From an uncultured Bacteroidales bacterium (GTDB taxonomy: Bacteria; Bacteroidota; Bacteroidia; Bacteroidales; P3), in contig ONLW01000006.1 of the NCBI GenBank assembly GCA_900318835.1, positions 76,327 to 125,364 of the forward strand: DNA of 49,038 bases, given 5' to 3'. Shown piece after piece: positions 402 to 38,386 of this stretch. The position numbers and the translations under genes were made by a program. Each line of letters starts with the position of its first letter. Position 1 is the stretch's first letter. The notes under the pieces are model-generated. The model saw only the letters and a program-made list of their open reading frames with translations. It was not told the DNA's origin and did not search any database.

Positions 402-644
402 ATGAGAAAGAAGTATTTGTTATTGGGAATGGCGGCGGTGCTGGCAGTGGGAGCGGTGAGTTGCTCGAAGGAGAAGAAGTGCCGTTGCGCCGTGTTGCAT
501 TCGTCGACGGTGAGAATCATTACGATTGACGGTGGTGACTGCGAGGATATCAAAGTGTTCCGTTACCATACGCCGATGAATGTGGCTGTGACGGATTCTC
601 TGTTGTGTACGGATTATGAATTCAAAATAGACTCAGAGTTATGA
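402..644 (+). CDS. Tiny cysteine-rich lipoprotein (paralogue 1)
   Basis: An 80-residue protein with a basic N-terminus, a hydrophobic segment and a lipobox (VGAVSC, lipid Cys21), so it should be exported and lipid-anchored. After the lipobox come a C-x-C pair (Cys27, Cys29), a later Cys47 in the context CEDI and Cys69. The same layout occurs in three other small proteins in this window (641-898, 8210-8410, 43436-43654), which makes them a family although I recognise no named domain. Its stop overlaps the start of the next paralogue (ATGA), so the two are translationally coupled. Function unknown; the cysteines could bind metal or form disulfides. Confidence 0.75.
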   Translation: MRKKYLLLGMAAVLAVGAVSCSKEKKCRCAVLHSSTVRIITIDGGDCEDIKVFRYHTPMNVAVTDSLLCTDYEFKIDSEL

Positions 645-24866: not shown

Positions 24867-24875
24867 TATCTTTGC
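24867..24875 (+). promoter_or_regulatory. Promoter -7 element of the rod-shaped RNA
   Basis: TATCTTTGC predicts transcription start near 24881. The upstream TTTG element is poor (TTG about 16 bases away). Confidence 0.65.
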
Positions 24876-24880
24876 ACATG

Positions 24881-25082
24881 ATTTGGGAGTAGAAATCCCA
24901 ATGATTATTATTGAAGCGTTATGCTTCCTTGTACTTGAGAACGTCGGAACTTTTCAAGGTGAATTATCAAGGATGTATGATGGCTTTACGCGTATAGCGT
25001 GGGCTGTTACTACATTAGATAATTCAGGTTTCCGACGACCTTCAAGTACTAAGTGGGCATACAGTGCCACGCTTCTTTTTTG
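24881..25082 (+). ncRNA. Rod-shaped structured RNA of about 200 nt (6S-like outline)
   Basis: A promoter is followed by a 5' hairpin (TTGGGA / TCCCAA, 24883-24901) and then a series of nested complementary arms: GAAGCGT/ACGCTTC (24913-24919 with 25068-25074), TATGC/GCATA (24920-24924 with 25057-25061), CTTGTACTTGA with TCAAGTACTAAG (24928-24938 with 25042-25053, one bulge), CGTCGGAA/TTCCGACG (24942-24949 with 25030-25037), TGAATTATC/GATAATTCA (24960-24968 with 25018-25026), ATGTA/TACAT and ACGC/GCGT. A T-run (25076-25081) follows the outermost arm, as in a terminator. An asymmetric internal loop (about 24950-24959) lies between the fourth and fifth arms. The outline recalls 6S RNA, but identity is unproven. 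A 78-codon reading frame across it is rejected. Confidence 0.6.
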
Positions 25083-25091
25083 TCAATGCTC

Positions 25092-25112
25092 TTTTGGCAC
25101 GAAGGGCCAAAA
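25092..25112 (+). promoter_or_regulatory. Hairpin just before the membrane-protein start
   Basis: TTTTGGC / GCCAAAA, loop ACGAAGG, ending 6 bp before the possible ATG at 25119. No T-tract follows; it could influence translation of the gene. Confidence 0.5.
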
Positions 25113-25118
25113 TGTATA

Positions 25119-25718
25119 ATGATTATGGATGAAAGAGTCAAACAGTACATTGAAGAGCGAAAGAGACAAATGGCGGAACAAGCTTCGTTGGAGAAAGAAA
25201 CAAAAGATGCTTATGAGTTAGAAAGAAAGGAAAAAATTCTCATTAAAGCAGGTCTTTGCGACAGGGAATATATGTCTAAGAGTCATCCGAACTGGGAGGA
25301 TTACCCATATTTTGACAATCTCGTCGGTGAGAGATACAGATTAAAACTATGGGATGTGTCAGATGAAGAGTATTCCGAACTCCTTAAATATATTCCAGAG
25401 GAGGAAAAGCATTCAATTAAGATAGAAGGTGTCGACCCCAACGAAACTAAGAGTGAGGATTTGGCAATAAATCCCAATGCAGAGAAGATATTAGATTGGA
25501 TATCTAAAATTGTTCTTTGGGGTGGTATAGTTGTTTTTGTCATTTACTTCATTCTATCGTTTAGAGAAGAAGGTGGATACTATCGGAGTAAAACGGTTTT
25601 TGACTGGACATTATTCCTTACAAGTTGTACTTCTTTATTCATTGCAGTGTCAATGTATGCTGTTATGCAAGTGTTACGCAACATTTCTATTAACATTTTT
25701 AATAAAAAACAATCATGA
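25119..25718 (+). CDS. Two-helix membrane protein with charged cytoplasmic N-terminus, unknown
   Basis: 199 residues from the ATG at 25119 (a second ATG two codons later is equally possible). The first ~40 residues are a charged coiled coil (VKQYIEERKRQMAEQASLEK). A middle region of about 80 residues has no recognised domain. Two transmembrane segments follow at about 130-147 and 162-186, with a short basic tail. The gene is AT-rich compared with its neighbours on both sides. Its last bases overlap the ATG of the downstream lipoprotein gene (ATGA), so the two form a unit. Function unknown. Confidence 0.75.
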   Translation: MIMDERVKQYIEERKRQMAEQASLEKETKDAYELERKEKILIKAGLCDREYMSKSHPNWEDYPYFDNLVGERYRLKLWDVSDEEYSELLKYIPEEEKHSIKIEGVDPNETKSEDLAINPNAEKILDWISKIVLWGGIVVFVIYFILSFREEGGYYRSKTVFDWTLFLTSCTSLFIAVSMYAVMQVLRNISINIFNKKQS

Positions 25719-34599: not shown

Positions 34600-34631
34600 T
34601 TTGTCAGTGTCAGAAAAATTGCATACCTTTG
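34600..34631 (+). promoter_or_regulatory. Promoter of the accessory operon leader
   Basis: TTTG (34600-34603), 20 bases, TACCTTTG (34624-34631). Predicted transcription start near 34638, about 250 nt before the first gene. Confidence 0.8.
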
Positions 34632-34722
34632 CACTATCAAATTAAAACATAACTATATGGCATAAAAACAACAGAATAAAATAGACATAAATAGACAATT
34701 AGTGCGTTAATCGCCTTTTTTG

Positions 34723-34835
34723 CATACGGAAATTCTGGAAAAATTTCAAAGTGTTATCTGCAAAGGAAAGGGGAAACGCTCACGCCACCGTGAGCTTTCT
34801 TGTTTGCAGATAAGGTTTTCCAGAGCCTCCGTATG
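34723..34835 (+). promoter_or_regulatory. Four-helix leader RNA of the accessory operon
   Basis: Nested perfect arms: CATACGGA/TCCGTATG (34723-34730 with 34828-34835), CTGGAAAA/TTTTCCAG (34735-34742 with 34816-34823), TTATCTGCAAA/TTTGCAGATAA (34754-34764 with 34803-34813), and an inner GAAA-c-GCTCAC / GTGAGCTTTC with loop GCCACC (34773-34799). Internal loops AATT/AGCC and ATTTCAAAGTG/GG separate the arms. The closing arm shares its 3' strand with the left arm of the terminator at 34829-34863, so the two cannot form together. This is what a riboswitch or attenuator would look like, here with the folded state predicted to allow read-through. No known ligand class recognised. Confidence 0.7.
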
Positions 34836-34863
34836 AACAAAGAATCAAGTTCACGGTTTTTTT
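34829..34863 (+). terminator. Competing intrinsic terminator in the leader
   Basis: CCGT-at-GAAC, loop of 10, GTTC-ACGG, then seven T (34857-34863), 27 bp before the first ATG. Its left arm overlaps the 3' strand of leader helix 1 by 7 bases. Confidence 0.7.
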
Positions 34864-34890
34864 ATTGTCTATCCACAAATTCAAAACAAC

Positions 34891-35490
34891 ATGGACACAA
34901 CAGAAACCACTTACTCCAGAGAAGCAGAAATAACCAAAACATTTAATCTGTTTTGGCAAAAGGTCTTTGGAAATAGAGACCCAAAGGATTACGCAAAACT
35001 ACTGACTATTGAGGACTGGATTGAGTTGAAGAAAACGTTGAGTGATGTCAACAATATGATAACTTTGAAAGTCACACAAGCATTCGTCGATAAACTCCAA
35101 GCAATGGGAATCATCAACAAAGTACAGGCAAATGCGATGAAGAAAGAGGTGGATTCCATTCACCCCAACACAAACGGTTTTGATGTCTGTTGGGACAAAA
35201 AAGAGGGCGTGAAGTTGATTGCCGAGGTAAAATGTAACATTCCTGTGAAACCACACGAATTTGGTGCGGCACAAAAGAATGGTATACTGAAAGACCTGAA
35301 AGGTCTGAAAGATGGCAAACGCAGTTTTGACGGTGAGAACACGGACAATTACTATAAGTTTATGGTGGTGCTTGACGTTGAGGGTGTCCGTGATGCAATA
35401 AAGAAACTTTGTGGTAATGAATGCATGGAATTTGTCAATAATCAAATTGACAAACACCATATCTACATATCTTTTATTGAATTGAAATAG
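34891..35490 (+). CDS. PD-(D/E)XK nuclease-like protein, unknown system
   Basis: 199 residues, cytoplasmic. The N-terminal ~90 residues are helical (FNLFWQKVFGNRDPKDYAKL, FVDKLQAMGIINKVQANAMK). The second half shows the PD-(D/E)XK pattern: GFDVCW with Asp98, then LIAEVKCN with Glu112 and Lys114, then a helix with GAAQKNGILKDLKGL and a strand KFMVVLD. That arrangement is typical of restriction-endonuclease-fold nucleases and their inactive relatives. It is the first gene of an eight-gene AT-rich operon behind a structured leader. Whether it cuts nucleic acid is inference; only the motif spacing is seen. Confidence 0.72.
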   Translation: MDTTETTYSREAEITKTFNLFWQKVFGNRDPKDYAKLLTIEDWIELKKTLSDVNNMITLKVTQAFVDKLQAMGIINKVQANAMKKEVDSIHPNTNGFDVCWDKKEGVKLIAEVKCNIPVKPHEFGAAQKNGILKDLKGLKDGKRSFDGENTDNYYKFMVVLDVEGVRDAIKKLCGNECMEFVNNQIDKHHIYISFIELK

Positions 35491-35526
35491 GTTTTATAAA
35501 GACAAATACAATAAATACAATATCCT

Positions 35527-36447
35527 ATGACAAACAAAGTAAGAGTTTATGGCAAGGCACAGAACCGCACGGCTCTGGGAATAATGCATGCCTACATGGT
35601 AATGTATCCGCAAGCCACTATGGATGACATTAAAAAGGCATTCCCCGATGAATTAAATCCCGATAGTGGCGTTAAGAAAAACTTCGTAAAGGCAGGAGAA
35701 AAAGGCACCGATGCCAACTGGGATGGTTTCTTCCAAAAAGAAGATGAACTACTAACTATGGGTGACGGCACAAAGGTTGCTGTTGTAAAAATGTGGACTA
35801 AACCAAGTTTTGAACGTTTGGTAAGTCATGCAACGCAATATGGAATTGAAATCGCTCAATTTGAATCCGCAGAAAAAGGAATTGGTCAAAAAGGGTCATT
35901 CCGATTGGAGTATCTTAACGGATATGTGCCTCCCAAACGTGAGGTAAACAAAGGTATTCCGTGGTGGGTGTGGGCAATTGTTGGTGTGGTTGTTGTGGGA
36001 CTTATCATCGCTTTGCTCTGCCGCCCGAAAGGCAAGAATGAAGTGATAACCGTAACCGACACTGTAGTGCAAACAGTTGTAGATACTGTATATGTTCAGC
36101 AATTGGAACAGATTGAAAACAACTTCAATGCAGCCCAATTCCAGCAGGGGAAATCCGACTTAAGTGAGGATGCAAAATTTGTGTTACACGACTTGGCAAA
36201 GTTGATGAATAGTTATCCAGAACTACGCCTGCGTATTGAAGGACATACCAGTGCCGAAGGTGATGCGGTGGTGAATCAGAAACTCTCCGAGGCGCGCGCA
36301 CAGGCCGCAGTTACATTCCTTATTGAGCATGGCGGCATAGATGCCAACCGTTTGGAGGCGGTCGGTTTTGGTAGCAGTAACCCGAAGAACGCCGACGACC
36401 CAATGGCACCAGAAAATCGTCGCACAGAATTCGTAATCATTAAATAA
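35527..36447 (+). CDS. OmpA/MotB-like inner-membrane protein with unknown cytoplasmic domain
   Basis: 306 residues without a signal peptide. Residues 1-138 are a soluble domain I cannot assign (ALGIMHAYMVMYPQATMDDI, NWDGFFQKEDELLTMGDG). One transmembrane helix follows at about 145-165 (PWWVWAIVGVVVVGLIIALL), a Thr/Val-rich linker (TDTVVQTVVDTVYV), then a complete OmpA domain at about 200-306 with IEGHTSAEGD, NQKLSEARAQAAVTFL, GFGSSNP and ENRRTEF, which bind peptidoglycan. The layout (cytoplasmic domain, one helix, periplasmic OmpA) is that of MotB and of the Zorya protein ZorB, but no MotA/ZorA partner is present. 36 bp after the nuclease-like gene. Confidence 0.85.
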   Translation: MTNKVRVYGKAQNRTALGIMHAYMVMYPQATMDDIKKAFPDELNPDSGVKKNFVKAGEKGTDANWDGFFQKEDELLTMGDGTKVAVVKMWTKPSFERLVSHATQYGIEIAQFESAEKGIGQKGSFRLEYLNGYVPPKREVNKGIPWWVWAIVGVVVVGLIIALLCRPKGKNEVITVTDTVVQTVVDTVYVQQLEQIENNFNAAQFQQGKSDLSEDAKFVLHDLAKLMNSYPELRLRIEGHTSAEGDAVVNQKLSEARAQAAVTFLIEHGGIDANRLEAVGFGSSNPKNADDPMAPENRRTEFVIIK

Positions 36448-36468
36448 TATAAACAAATACACAATCTT

Positions 36469-36891
36469 ATGAAAACAGACCACAGAACATTTGCCGCCTT
36501 TTTGGCAGCAGCGGTATGGGCGGACGGTGAATACGATGAGTCCGAAAAGGCATATCTTTTTGACCTTGCAGAGGATATGGAGTTACCCACAATTCCCGTT
36601 GTAGTCGAAAAAGAGATTAAGGCTACGGAAAACATGACCGAGGAGGAAATCAACGACCACCTGGAAAAAGCAGCCAAACACGTCTTCAAAGGTGAAGAGG
36701 AAGGTGTGTTGACACTCTGTCTGCACATGTTGTGTGCCAATGCGGTACTATCACAAGACGAGGTGGATAACTTTATAGCCTTTGCCGAGATACTCGGCGT
36801 GGATGAAGAAAGAGCCAACACAATCCTCGACGAGTTTGTAAATGAAGAGGAAGACCTAATTGTCGAAGGTGAAAACACTTCGGCTGAATAA
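36469..36891 (+). CDS. TerB-like protein
   Basis: 140 residues, all-helical and acidic. AAFLAAAVWADGEYDESEKAYL is the DG-containing motif of the TerB/DjlA-type fold, repeated loosely later as LCLHMLCANAVLSQDEVDNF. TerB-family proteins bind metal and appear in stress, tellurite-resistance and phage-defence gene sets; the family is broad and this member has no proven role. The acidic C-terminus (FVNEEEDLIVEGENTSAE) could contact the basic protein encoded next. It is 21 bp after the OmpA gene. Confidence 0.75.
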   Translation: MKTDHRTFAAFLAAAVWADGEYDESEKAYLFDLAEDMELPTIPVVVEKEIKATENMTEEEINDHLEKAAKHVFKGEEEGVLTLCLHMLCANAVLSQDEVDNFIAFAEILGVDEERANTILDEFVNEEEDLIVEGENTSAE

Positions 36892-36913
36892 TAACCACAA
36901 AAAACAAATAGTT

Positions 36914-37180
36914 ATGGCAATACAGAGAACAGCCTCCGGCAAGGTTGACAAGAGGACCAAAGAATACAAAGAAATGGTAGAGCGCGCCCGCAAGGCACGT
37001 GAAGCACAGAAAAAAGCATCCAAGAAACCTGCCATCAAGAAGAGCAGTGGGGCCAAACGCAGAGCCGATGGCAAACTTGACCAAAGAACCAAAGAAGGCA
37101 AGGAAGCCGCCGCCCGTATGGCAAAAGCCCGCAAGGCTAAAGGCAGTCTGAAAAACAAAATCAAAAGACTTTTCAAATAA
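36914..37180 (+). CDS. Lys-rich protein with two near-identical repeats
   Basis: 88 residues, strongly basic. Two 28-residue units are visible: TASGKVDKRTKEYKEMVERA (about 6-33) and RADGKLDQRTKEGKEAAARM (about 51-78), joined by a Lys/Ser linker (KKASKKPAIKKSSGAKR) and ending KNKIKRLFK. The composition recalls histone-H1-like or nucleic-acid-binding tails. The ATG at 36914 is chosen over one at 36860, which lies inside the TerB gene. Its high charge next to an acidic TerB-like protein suggests a complex or nucleic-acid role; no direct evidence. Confidence 0.7.
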   Translation: MAIQRTASGKVDKRTKEYKEMVERARKAREAQKKASKKPAIKKSSGAKRRADGKLDQRTKEGKEAAARMAKARKAKGSLKNKIKRLFK

Positions 37181-37207
37181 TCAAATAATCATTTAATATC
37201 AATTATT

Positions 37208-37408
37208 ATGGCTTACAAAAAATCAGCAATCAGTGGCGAGTATATGATTGGTGTACTCGAAAGTGGCGGTATCGAAGTTTACCGTGTTTATGACAATGTA
37301 AAAGGCGCTCTCCGTGAGGTGTCAGAGAAAGAGGGGTTCGAGATTAATCCCGAATGGAACACAAGACAACTCGGAGCAAAACTTATTGATTTCATCAACA
37401 ATAAATAG
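37208..37408 (+). CDS. Small hypothetical protein
   Basis: 66 residues, mixed alpha/beta appearance (EYMIGVLESGGIEVYRVYDN, then a helix GALREVSEKEG and LGAKLIDFINNK). No family recognised. It lies 27 bp after the Lys-rich gene and 7 bp before the next gene in the same operon, and has a clear coding pattern, so it is likely translated. Confidence 0.65.
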   Translation: MAYKKSAISGEYMIGVLESGGIEVYRVYDNVKGALREVSEKEGFEINPEWNTRQLGAKLIDFINNK

Positions 37409-37415
37409 CAATACA

Positions 37416-37763
37416 ATGGAAATCAAAGTTGACGGACGCCTTTTGGTGTCAACCCTATGTAAGAGGTTCAAAGATGAGTTCGGTGGTACACTACGTGTAT
37501 ATCAAGGACAGAAACGCCTTACTGGTGATGAGAAAGTTAGTGAGGTCGCAACAAAAACAGGCAGTTATGAATGCCGTGGAAGTAAGACGGTCGGCGGTTT
37601 CGAGAAGGACATGATGACCAACTTTGGATTGAAAGTTCAAGTTGCATCTTGCGATGACCATGTATTGGCTCTCGATGAAATGACCCTTGCCAAATTGCCC
37701 GACATTCCGAAAATGGCTCGAAAAGCCGATATGGATGCCCTTAAATCCAAATATGCCAAATAA
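37416..37763 (+). CDS. Small alpha/beta hypothetical protein
   Basis: 115 residues from the ATG at 37416. The N-terminal part reads EIKVDGRLLVSTLCKRFKDE followed by FGGTLRVYQGQKRLTG, then TGSYECRGSKTVGGFEKDMM and FGLKVQVASCDDHVLALDEM: two similar beta-alpha-beta halves ending in a Lys-rich helix. I have a vague memory of similar Bacteroidota proteins without function and do not assign a family. It follows the 66-residue gene by 7 bp. Confidence 0.68.
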   Translation: MEIKVDGRLLVSTLCKRFKDEFGGTLRVYQGQKRLTGDEKVSEVATKTGSYECRGSKTVGGFEKDMMTNFGLKVQVASCDDHVLALDEMTLAKLPDIPKMARKADMDALKSKYAK

Positions 37764-37776
37764 AACGGCATAAACC

Positions 37777-37809
37777 AATCTGGTGGACAGGGAGACCTGC
37801 TGCCAGATT
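37777..37809 (+). other. Mid-operon hairpin
   Basis: AATCTGG ... CCAGATT enclosing CAGG-GAGA-CCTG (a GNRA-type loop) in the 65-bp gap between two operon genes. No T-tract, so more likely an mRNA stability or processing element than a terminator. Confidence 0.6.
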
Positions 37810-37828
37810 CCAATTAAACAACATTATT

Positions 37829-38089
37829 ATGTCTGTAGAATATTACCGCAAACGCCTTATTGACCTACGTTCTCAAGTAACAAAGGAACGAGAAGCAAAA
37901 AAGAAGGATAATGAACGATATGCTGCATATATAAAGAGTGCCAGTTCTCCAAGCAGTAAAGCAAGTTACCGAAAACAAAAGATTGACCATGCTGCCAGTC
38001 ATGACCGCAATATTGAGAACCTTAAACGCCAAATAGAGAGCGCAAAAGAAAGTCTCAAACGAGAACGTGAAAGAGCAAAGAGAAAGTAG
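37829..38089 (+). CDS. Small coiled-coil protein
   Basis: 86 residues, very basic and helical throughout: YYRKRLIDLRSQVTKEREAK, then NIENLKRQIESAKESLKRER with RERAKRK at the end, separated by a Ser-rich turn (SASSPSSKASY). This is a coiled-coil hairpin in outline. No signal or membrane segment. It ends 3 bp before the small membrane-protein gene, so the two are coupled. Confidence 0.65.
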   Translation: MSVEYYRKRLIDLRSQVTKEREAKKKDNERYAAYIKSASSPSSKASYRKQKIDHAASHDRNIENLKRQIESAKESLKRERERAKRK

Positions 38090-38092
38090 TAT

Positions 38093-38386
38093 ATGGCAAT
38101 ATTTCTTTGGATATTTCAATTTATTAGTCCTATAGCAATCATTCTCGGTGGACTATACCTACTTGAAGCCCCCTCTCCTGCATCACTTGTTGTGGGTGCG
38201 TTGAGTGCAGTCCTCGGTCTGGTGGTTGGTATTGTTGGTTGGGCTGATACGGTGCCTCCCCGTTGGTTTTGGATAAAGAGCAGCATGGATTTGGCAGGAA
38301 GCCGTTTTATGACCGCCATAGGTTATGCCATCCAATTCTTTTTCCTTGCACTTGCCATATTTGGTTTGGTGGAATATTTAGGATAA
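38093..38386 (+). CDS. Small three-helix membrane protein
   Basis: 97 residues. Hydrophobic segments at about 3-23 (IFLWIFQFISPIAIILGGLY), 30-49 (SLVVGALSAVLGLVVGIVGW) and 74-94 (MTAIGYAIQFFFLALAIFGL). No domain recognised. Last gene of the operon, followed 13 bp later by a strong hairpin. It could be the membrane partner of the OmpA/MotB-like protein, but it is much smaller than MotA-type proteins. Confidence 0.68.
   Translation: MAIFLWIFQFISPIAIILGGLYLLEAPSPASLVVGALSAVLGLVVGIVGWADTVPPRWFWIKSSMDLAGSRFMTAIGYAIQFFFLALAIFGLVEYLG

Follow-up and report, generated by a model that had tools for sequence, protein, structure and literature searches.

What kind of RNA is encoded between positions 34,600 and 34,890 of the window, as we call the whole 49,038-nt stretch of DNA from an uncultured Bacteroidales bacterium analyzed here, and how might it act on the operon that follows it? 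A first-pass annotation had described this stretch as a structured leader in which a full promoter and four nested helices precede a terminator, had considered it a probable riboswitch or attenuator outside the described classes, and had proposed that related loci be searched for compensating changes, a conserved terminator overlap and a conserved downstream gene. We find the leader to be one copy of a large family of folded leader RNAs present in many Bacteroidota and apparently uncatalogued. On the strength of its sequence features, the RNA is quite probably a cis-acting transcription attenuator representing a new class spread through this phylum.

The features of the leader are collected in Table 1. 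Inspection of the window confirmed the promoter, which is of the Bacteroidetes type, the four nested helices and the run of seven T residues ahead of the first gene. The predicted minimum free energy of positions 34700-34880 was -58 kcal/mol (z -5.15), and none of 200 shuffled sequences folded equally well. The core scored 94.3 bits with covariance model R1 (see below), the window being among the 30 sequences from which this model was built. A 9-nt inverted repeat flanking the fold (ATAGACAAT/ATTGTCTAT) was set aside since it was absent, by eye, from the related copies inspected.

Table 1 Coordinates of the leader, of a second copy of the RNA and of the first gene of the operon in the window.
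Feature	Positions	Strand	Basis or remark
Promoter, Bacteroidetes type	34600-34631	+	TTTG (-33 type), then TACCTTTG (-7 type, 34624-34631)
Small hairpin H0 (GCG/CGC)	34704-34714	+	Sequence inspection
Core fold	34723-34835	+	Helices A, A2 and B
Helix A	34723-34730/34828-34835	+	8 bp
Helix A2	34733-34742/34816-34825	+	10 bp
Helix B	34754-34764/34803-34813	+	11 bp
Top hairpin GCTCACG/CGTGAGC, putative antiterminator	34778-34784/34789-34795	+	Predicted fold
Terminator left arm, also top hairpin 3' arm	34787-34797	+	Pairing across copies
Terminator right arm AAGTTCACGGT	34847-34857	+	Pairs with 34787-34797
Seven T	34857-34863	+	ATG at 34891 follows 27 nt later
First gene of the operon, 199 aa	34891-35490	+	No Pfam family above cut-off, no PADLOC match
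Second, divergent copy	24867-25081	+	35.5 bits, E 1.9e-5
Second copy, promoter TATCTTTG	24867-24874	+	Sequence
Second copy, core	24929-25051	+	R1 match
Second copy, top hairpin 3' arm AGCGTGG	24996-25002	+	Pairs with CCACGCT
Second copy, terminator arm CCACGCT, then T-rich	25067-25073	+	Arm pairing

BLASTN comparison of the leader with its own genome revealed two more copies at loci L002 and L003 (70% and 76% identity). With the L002 leader as a query, matches were obtained in 51 of 80 genomes, namely its own, 46 of 47 from the same genus (47 of 48 with the own genome counted in) and four of 32 others, some of them covering the promoter only. Model R1 was built from the core of 30 copies aligned by MAFFT; as the promoter, the upstream hairpin and the terminator had been kept out of it, these elements could be judged separately. 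At E <= 0.001, R1 matched 40 of 61 genomes: the own genome, 33 of 36 from the same genus (34 of 37 on the inclusive count) and six of the 24 that belong to other families within the order. The own genome searched alone yielded four matches with E <= 7e-8, one at 0.001 and one reverse-strand echo; the second copy in the window appeared in the search of individual loci only and was absent from the whole-genome matches.

A loose pattern spanning just the top hairpin and its adjoining strand, rather than the rest of the structure, was then scanned over 84,980 species genomes and occurred in at least 118 stretches. Among the matches listed, 115 of 118 titles name taxa that we take to be placed in Bacteroidota, three say just 'bacterium', and none names another phylum; the carriers include Flavobacterium, Chryseobacterium, Mesonia, Siphonobacter and Sunxiuqinia as well as Odoribacter, Rikenella, Alistipes, Tannerella and many Bacteroidales metagenome-assembled genomes. 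The complete structure was found in all 80 pattern loci modeled out of these at least 118 stretches (E 2e-23 to 3.5e-6). A second covariance model built from the 80 loci, R2, matched at least 60 of 392 genomes across the phylum, the own genome included, in 31 of 174 genera with nine candidates scored per genome; one contig from each of eight R2-matching genomes carried one to five copies. All covariance-model searches covered Bacteroidota genomes. In a scan of viral sequences a single viral contig carried the pattern, and a phage origin of the family was rejected on this basis. Two leader copies stand before different genes at each of loci L083 (497-616 and 3609-3727) and L067 (2539-2660 and 4673-4787), and this spacing of 2-3 kb suggests local duplication of a leader together with its gene.

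Searches of Rfam 15 at the gathering score returned no match in the whole window and only tRNA and tmRNA in 12 plus 18 further loci; at a permissive score the window leader gave chance-level matches only, and no family recurred at the RNA in 20 more loci searched at E up to 1. The earlier remark that no described riboswitch class was recognized is supported as far as Rfam 15 is concerned. Flavo-1 (RF01705) was not matched at the gathering score in 18 loci, including eight from Flavobacterium, one from Flavobacteriaceae, two from Chryseobacterium and one from Mesonia, nor in 10 loci searched with the E limit relaxed to 1. At locus L096, a near-threshold match to the DUF805b motif (569-604, minus strand; 33.0 bits for a cut-off of 35.6) lies downstream of the leader copy. 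The candidates of Weinberg 2010 comprise Flavo-1, Bacteroidales-1 (RF01693), Bacteroides-1 (RF01694) and Bacteroid-trp (RF01692), and are, like the family described here, structured RNAs of the same phylum (PMC2864571); none of them was found by cmscan with Rfam 15 in the window and 30 loci at the gathering score, or in the 20 additional loci at the permissive limit. Like the present family, FopS of Bacteroides thetaiotaomicron is a multi-copy Bacteroidota RNA with its own promoters and a link to SusC-like genes; it differs in acting in trans and in its consensus structure, where a terminator hairpin follows an unpaired 5' stretch (PMC11697453), whereas the family RNA is a long nested core that precedes operons, and identity with FopS was rejected on the basis of this structural difference. 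From Flavobacterium psychrophilum, 64 structured 5' regions have been described (PMC9723704). 'Uncatalogued' is accordingly used here to mean without an entry in Rfam 15 and in the literature searchable to us, not in all that has been printed. A 2017 study reportedly listed 224 motifs. In the open-access literature searched, we found no description of the RNA, which the 2017 motif list or the candidates of PMC8040213 could contain.

Because the core is nearly palindromic, its strand has to be assigned with care, and the promoter upstream together with the U-run downstream fixes it. An initial placement of the L002 and L003 leaders on the opposite strand was traced to the palindrome and rejected, since the promoter, the gene and the U-run all put the leader on the minus strand of these loci. 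Of the 213 copies with enough upstream sequence (36 nt or more), 173 had a same-strand TAnnTTTG element at a distance of 35-170 nt upstream, where shuffling predicted about 17; for the three sets of copies used here, the counts were 88/108, 60/76 and 25/29 (about 5, 7 and 5 expected). Duplicates (L043, L064 and L110) and the weak reverse-strand matches of L002, L090 and L115 had been dropped before the pairing, terminator and promoter tests, and the reverse match of L159 before the latter two; the sets partly overlap and are not fully independent, with at least L124=L060, L157=L066, L164=L033 and L194=L015 in common.

The compensating changes that the first-pass annotation had proposed to look for were abundant, at least 30 of the 38 pairs being changed on both sides in each of three sets whose alignments, partly overlapping in content, were fitted to the model and so favor the structure. 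In the genus set plus L056 (88 distinct rows), 94.4% of the cells were paired and 34/38 pairs had changed on both sides; the covariation score reached 0.627, compared to 0.186 upon shuffling and at most 0.084 upon sliding, with 762 double-change cells against 203 in shuffles and only 31-43% pairing in the slid controls. Other families of the order (23 rows) were 95.1% paired, with both sides changed in 30/38 pairs. The phylum set (80 rows) was 91.9% paired and likewise had 30/38 pairs changed on both sides, with a score of 0.682 against 0.169 and 801 double-change cells against 235 in shuffles, the top hairpin being fixed by the search pattern in this set and hence uninformative there. In a MAFFT alignment made without structure fitting, double changes occurred in seven of 15 predicted pairs, and RNAalifold recovered A2 and the top hairpin but not A and B. 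Helices A, A2 and B vary freely in sequence while their pairing is kept; the best conserved letters outside these varying stems are GAAA, UUU, GG and RCCUC.

The 3' strand of the top hairpin appears to have a second partner. In the window, this strand and the right arm listed in Table 1 form an 11-bp helix of -24.1 kcal/mol placed before seven U, with a long loop of 49 nt between the arms. In 206 of 217 copies from the overlapping sets (103/108, 78/80 and 25/29), the 3' arm of the top hairpin can pair over 6 bp or more with a downstream arm that is followed by five or more T in 8 nt, copies with less than 45 nt downstream (L014) being left out; U-runs are often interrupted among copies. The two arms co-vary in the first set (mean 22.61, compared to a maximum of 19.58 in 200 arm-swap permutations) and in the second (21.79 against 20.29), with no significant covariation in the third set of 29 copies (21.21 against a permuted maximum of 21.52). 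In the unfitted alignment of 32 sequences, the terminator helix was 88.3% paired against 84.4% in shuffles, a modest gain. The arms at L083 (GGTGTGGGC/GCCCACATT) differ from those of the window yet match each other, and matching arms were also found in the distant copies L067 (AGCGTGGTCG/TGACCACGCT) and L079 (GGCGTGGGC/GTCCGCGCT). These sequence comparisons support the notion that the 3' strand of the top hairpin has two mutually exclusive partners, its own 5' arm and the terminator arm. Of the two terminator pairings proposed, only this one co-varies, in two of the three sets, and the conserved exclusion would run via the top hairpin and not via the closing helix: the mutual exclusion of terminator and long fold put forward in the first-pass annotation is supported, while the strand to which it had assigned it is not. 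Forcing the terminator instead of the core fold cost, set by set, a median of +13.3, +12.3 and +8.0 kcal/mol, with nested structures only considered. With the core fold thus favored by a median of 8-13 kcal/mol, the terminator state would need help or a kinetic route. These energies favor the read-through fold in the absence of any effector. The ON direction that had been proposed for the switch is not supported by the sequence data.

An additional strand, AGCGUUU or a variant thereof, adjoins the core upstream and either forms its own small hairpin or pairs with AAACGCU or a variant at the 5' base of the top hairpin. The latter pairing reaches 10-11 bp among copies and is limited to 5 bp in the window, where GCGTT (34704-34708) can pair with AACGC (34775-34779). 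Matching changes were seen at L117 (upstream AAGCATTT with AAATGCTT) and at L083 (upstream GGTTTTC with GAAAACC), and the pairing co-varies, 0, 0 and 1 of 200 permutations reaching the observed mean in the three sets; in the unfitted 32-sequence alignment it was 96.5% paired, with no covariation beyond shuffles. Copies with less than 30 nt upstream, L062:486 and L099 were left out of this listing. Within the core, a short hairpin GAAAU:AUUUC encloses the 5' strand of A2 (87.8% paired, compared to 79.8% shuffled) and shows moderate covariation with 30 double-change cells against 11.4 in shuffles, although a one-column slide still gave 82.8% pairing and the outer pairs share letters with helix A. 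If this hairpin coexists with A2, its loop and the A2 partner strand would make a pseudoknot.

Outside the genus of the window, the terminator right arm can also pair with the sequence that directly follows the U-run (10 bp at L073; also L151, L158 and L176, among others). In the 131 copies concerned, this pairing reached a mean of 15.08 against a permuted maximum of 13.78, and a helix of at least 6 bp was present in 96, chance ones included; the 83 copies from the window's genus gave no signal (12.04 against 12.00). This partner, which might hold the RNA in the read-through state or influence translation, is not explained by the attenuator model. Between the U-run and the ATG at L007, L009 and L028, which are restriction-modification loci, a short inverted repeat of the GATGCTTGG...CCAAGCATC type was noticed by eye and is perhaps a translational element.

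We propose the following model for the function of the RNA. The core and the top hairpin would form during transcription before the terminator arm is made; as long as they hold, RNA polymerase would read into the operon, and where they open it would stop at the U-run. Read-through would thus be the expected outcome for as long as the top hairpin stays closed; the AGCGUUU-type strand may help to pull it open by pairing with the 5' base of the hairpin. A putative effector would act on the conserved core nucleotides (GAAA...UUU, GG and RCCUC). With terminator/antiterminator riboswitches and attenuators the family shares a folded leader, one strand alternating between a core and an intrinsic terminator, and a downstream operon; it differs from the known ones in its very varied downstream genes, the long loop between the terminator arms, the lack of an Rfam match and the extra upstream strand that competes for the 5' side of the top hairpin. 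Judged by sequence, the leaders contain both a conserved, co-varying, aptamer-like core, folded and with conserved unpaired letters, and an expression platform with mutually exclusive structures. The RNA would work like a riboswitch or an attenuator; to be a riboswitch in the strict sense, it would have to bind a small molecule or ion directly and change its structure in response.

We next turned to the genes behind the leaders. An ORF on the same strand started within 700 nt in 175 of 188 copies, at a median of 77 nt from the end of the core to the start codon; ORFs of at least 50 aa were called mechanically and without a chance control, L062:486 being dropped, and 11 of the 13 copies without a first gene sit within about 530 nt of the end of their locus. 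The downstream genes, whose conservation the first-pass annotation had proposed to check, were diverse: 80 first genes from the window's genus fell into 60 clusters and 95 others into 81. By Pfam and PADLOC, first genes of the genus include restriction enzymes and methylases of several types, an Mrr-ResIII protein and HKD-Snf2 helicases along with TerD, a C10 peptidase, glycosyl and acyl transferases and a TonB plug, each family matching one to three of the 60 cluster members; as they were partly found with a methylase leader as a query, this mix is biased. In the own genome, a type I/IIG-like methylase follows the L002 leader and an HKD-Snf2 helicase the L003 leader, while the leader at L273 stands before the first piece of a methylase. 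A gene at 1776-2636 of L003 (minus strand), just upstream of the helicase leader, is presumably BRO/KilA-like or DinD-like.

Family searches downstream of the window leader covered the first eight ORFs. The run of small ORFs at 34891-38386 includes an OmpA-domain protein and a TerB-like one just below the cut-off, and might be an accessory or defence system; a homologue of its first gene (50% identity, 191 aa) also follows a family leader at L114 in the same genus. The ORF behind the second window copy (25086-25715) has no Pfam or PADLOC match and a hydrophobic stretch by eye. Outside the genus, first genes encode SusC-type receptors with Plug and CarboxypepD domains (L174, L142, L202 and L131), further SusC-like proteins recognized by eye, an ECF sigma factor (L190), Por secretion tail proteins (5 of 81 clusters) and response regulators (3 of 81). 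Defence genes are rare there, every matching PADLOC model having one member among the 81 clusters; the link to defence is seen in the window's genus and is limited as a class-wide feature. All these gene types are given as plain occurrences. Genes so diverse do not point to one metabolite, and the effector is probably a common cellular signal. The build common to the leaders, in which one strand can serve either the fold or the transcription stop, suggests that they may act as one kind of switch for numerous genes of surface and defence functions. More tentatively, and with somewhat less confidence than an even chance would warrant, one signal-sensing attenuator class might switch a Bacteroidota-wide regulon comprising nutrient receptors and sigma factors in flavobacteria, and secreted proteins, restriction-modification and helicase genes in gut Bacteroidales.

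The alternative that fares best, unlikely as we consider it, is that the core is not a ligand aptamer but the landing site for a protein antiterminator, a NusG paralogue akin to LoaP, RfaH or UpxY. The leaders recognized by these proteins likewise control accessory surface operons and need a protein partner; the mix of accessory surface and defence genes downstream resembles the horizontally acquired operons reported for RfaH, and long stems of free sequence with few conserved loop letters would suit a protein that reads structure. The family RNA, however, by far exceeds the ops element of RfaH and the LoaP hairpins in size and complexity, and we know of no conserved exchange between a top hairpin and a terminator at LoaP or RfaH targets. 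It is improbable that the terminated leader is itself the product, acting in trans as a small RNA with read-through being incidental: most copies do have a promoter and a terminator-like end, and multi-copy small RNAs such as FopS are known in Bacteroides (PMC11697453), but helix sequences that turn over with their pairing kept are unexpected for seed regions, and most copies are followed at a short distance by an ORF on the same strand. Very improbable, too, is a mobile palindromic, MITE-like repeat that happens to carry a promoter and a terminator; the multiple copies found within single genomes, the resemblance of leaders that precede unrelated genes and the position of some copies near contig ends in fragmented assemblies (G063) would fit it, whereas the compensatory changes, the fixed order of upstream promoter and downstream terminator and the occurrence of the pattern in a single viral contig argue against it. 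Hardly any credence is left for the original proposal that the closing strand (34828-34835) excludes a local terminator (34829-34863, left arm 34829-34838), since those arms can pair in the window but the hairpin (34829-34856) is worth only -5.7 kcal/mol on its own and its pairing is not conserved, staying within the permuted maximum in all three sets (12.16 against 12.44, with a permuted mean of 11.87, in the first; 12.29 against 12.51; 13.07 against 13.31).

Bacteroidota dominate the gut and are also widespread in soil and water, yet to our knowledge a role has been assigned to only a small number of their leader RNAs. A family that recurs across many genera, frequently with more than one copy in a genome, that precedes receptor, sigma-factor, secreted-protein and restriction-modification operons and that carries a conserved pairing switch would represent a new regulatory layer for the phylum. 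It gives a handle on how restriction-modification operons are switched, and with the covariance model the members of the regulon can be listed for each genome. We know of no RNA regulon linking anti-phage defence and surface genes to one RNA-read signal; if true, the shared-regulon reading would place both under such a common signal.
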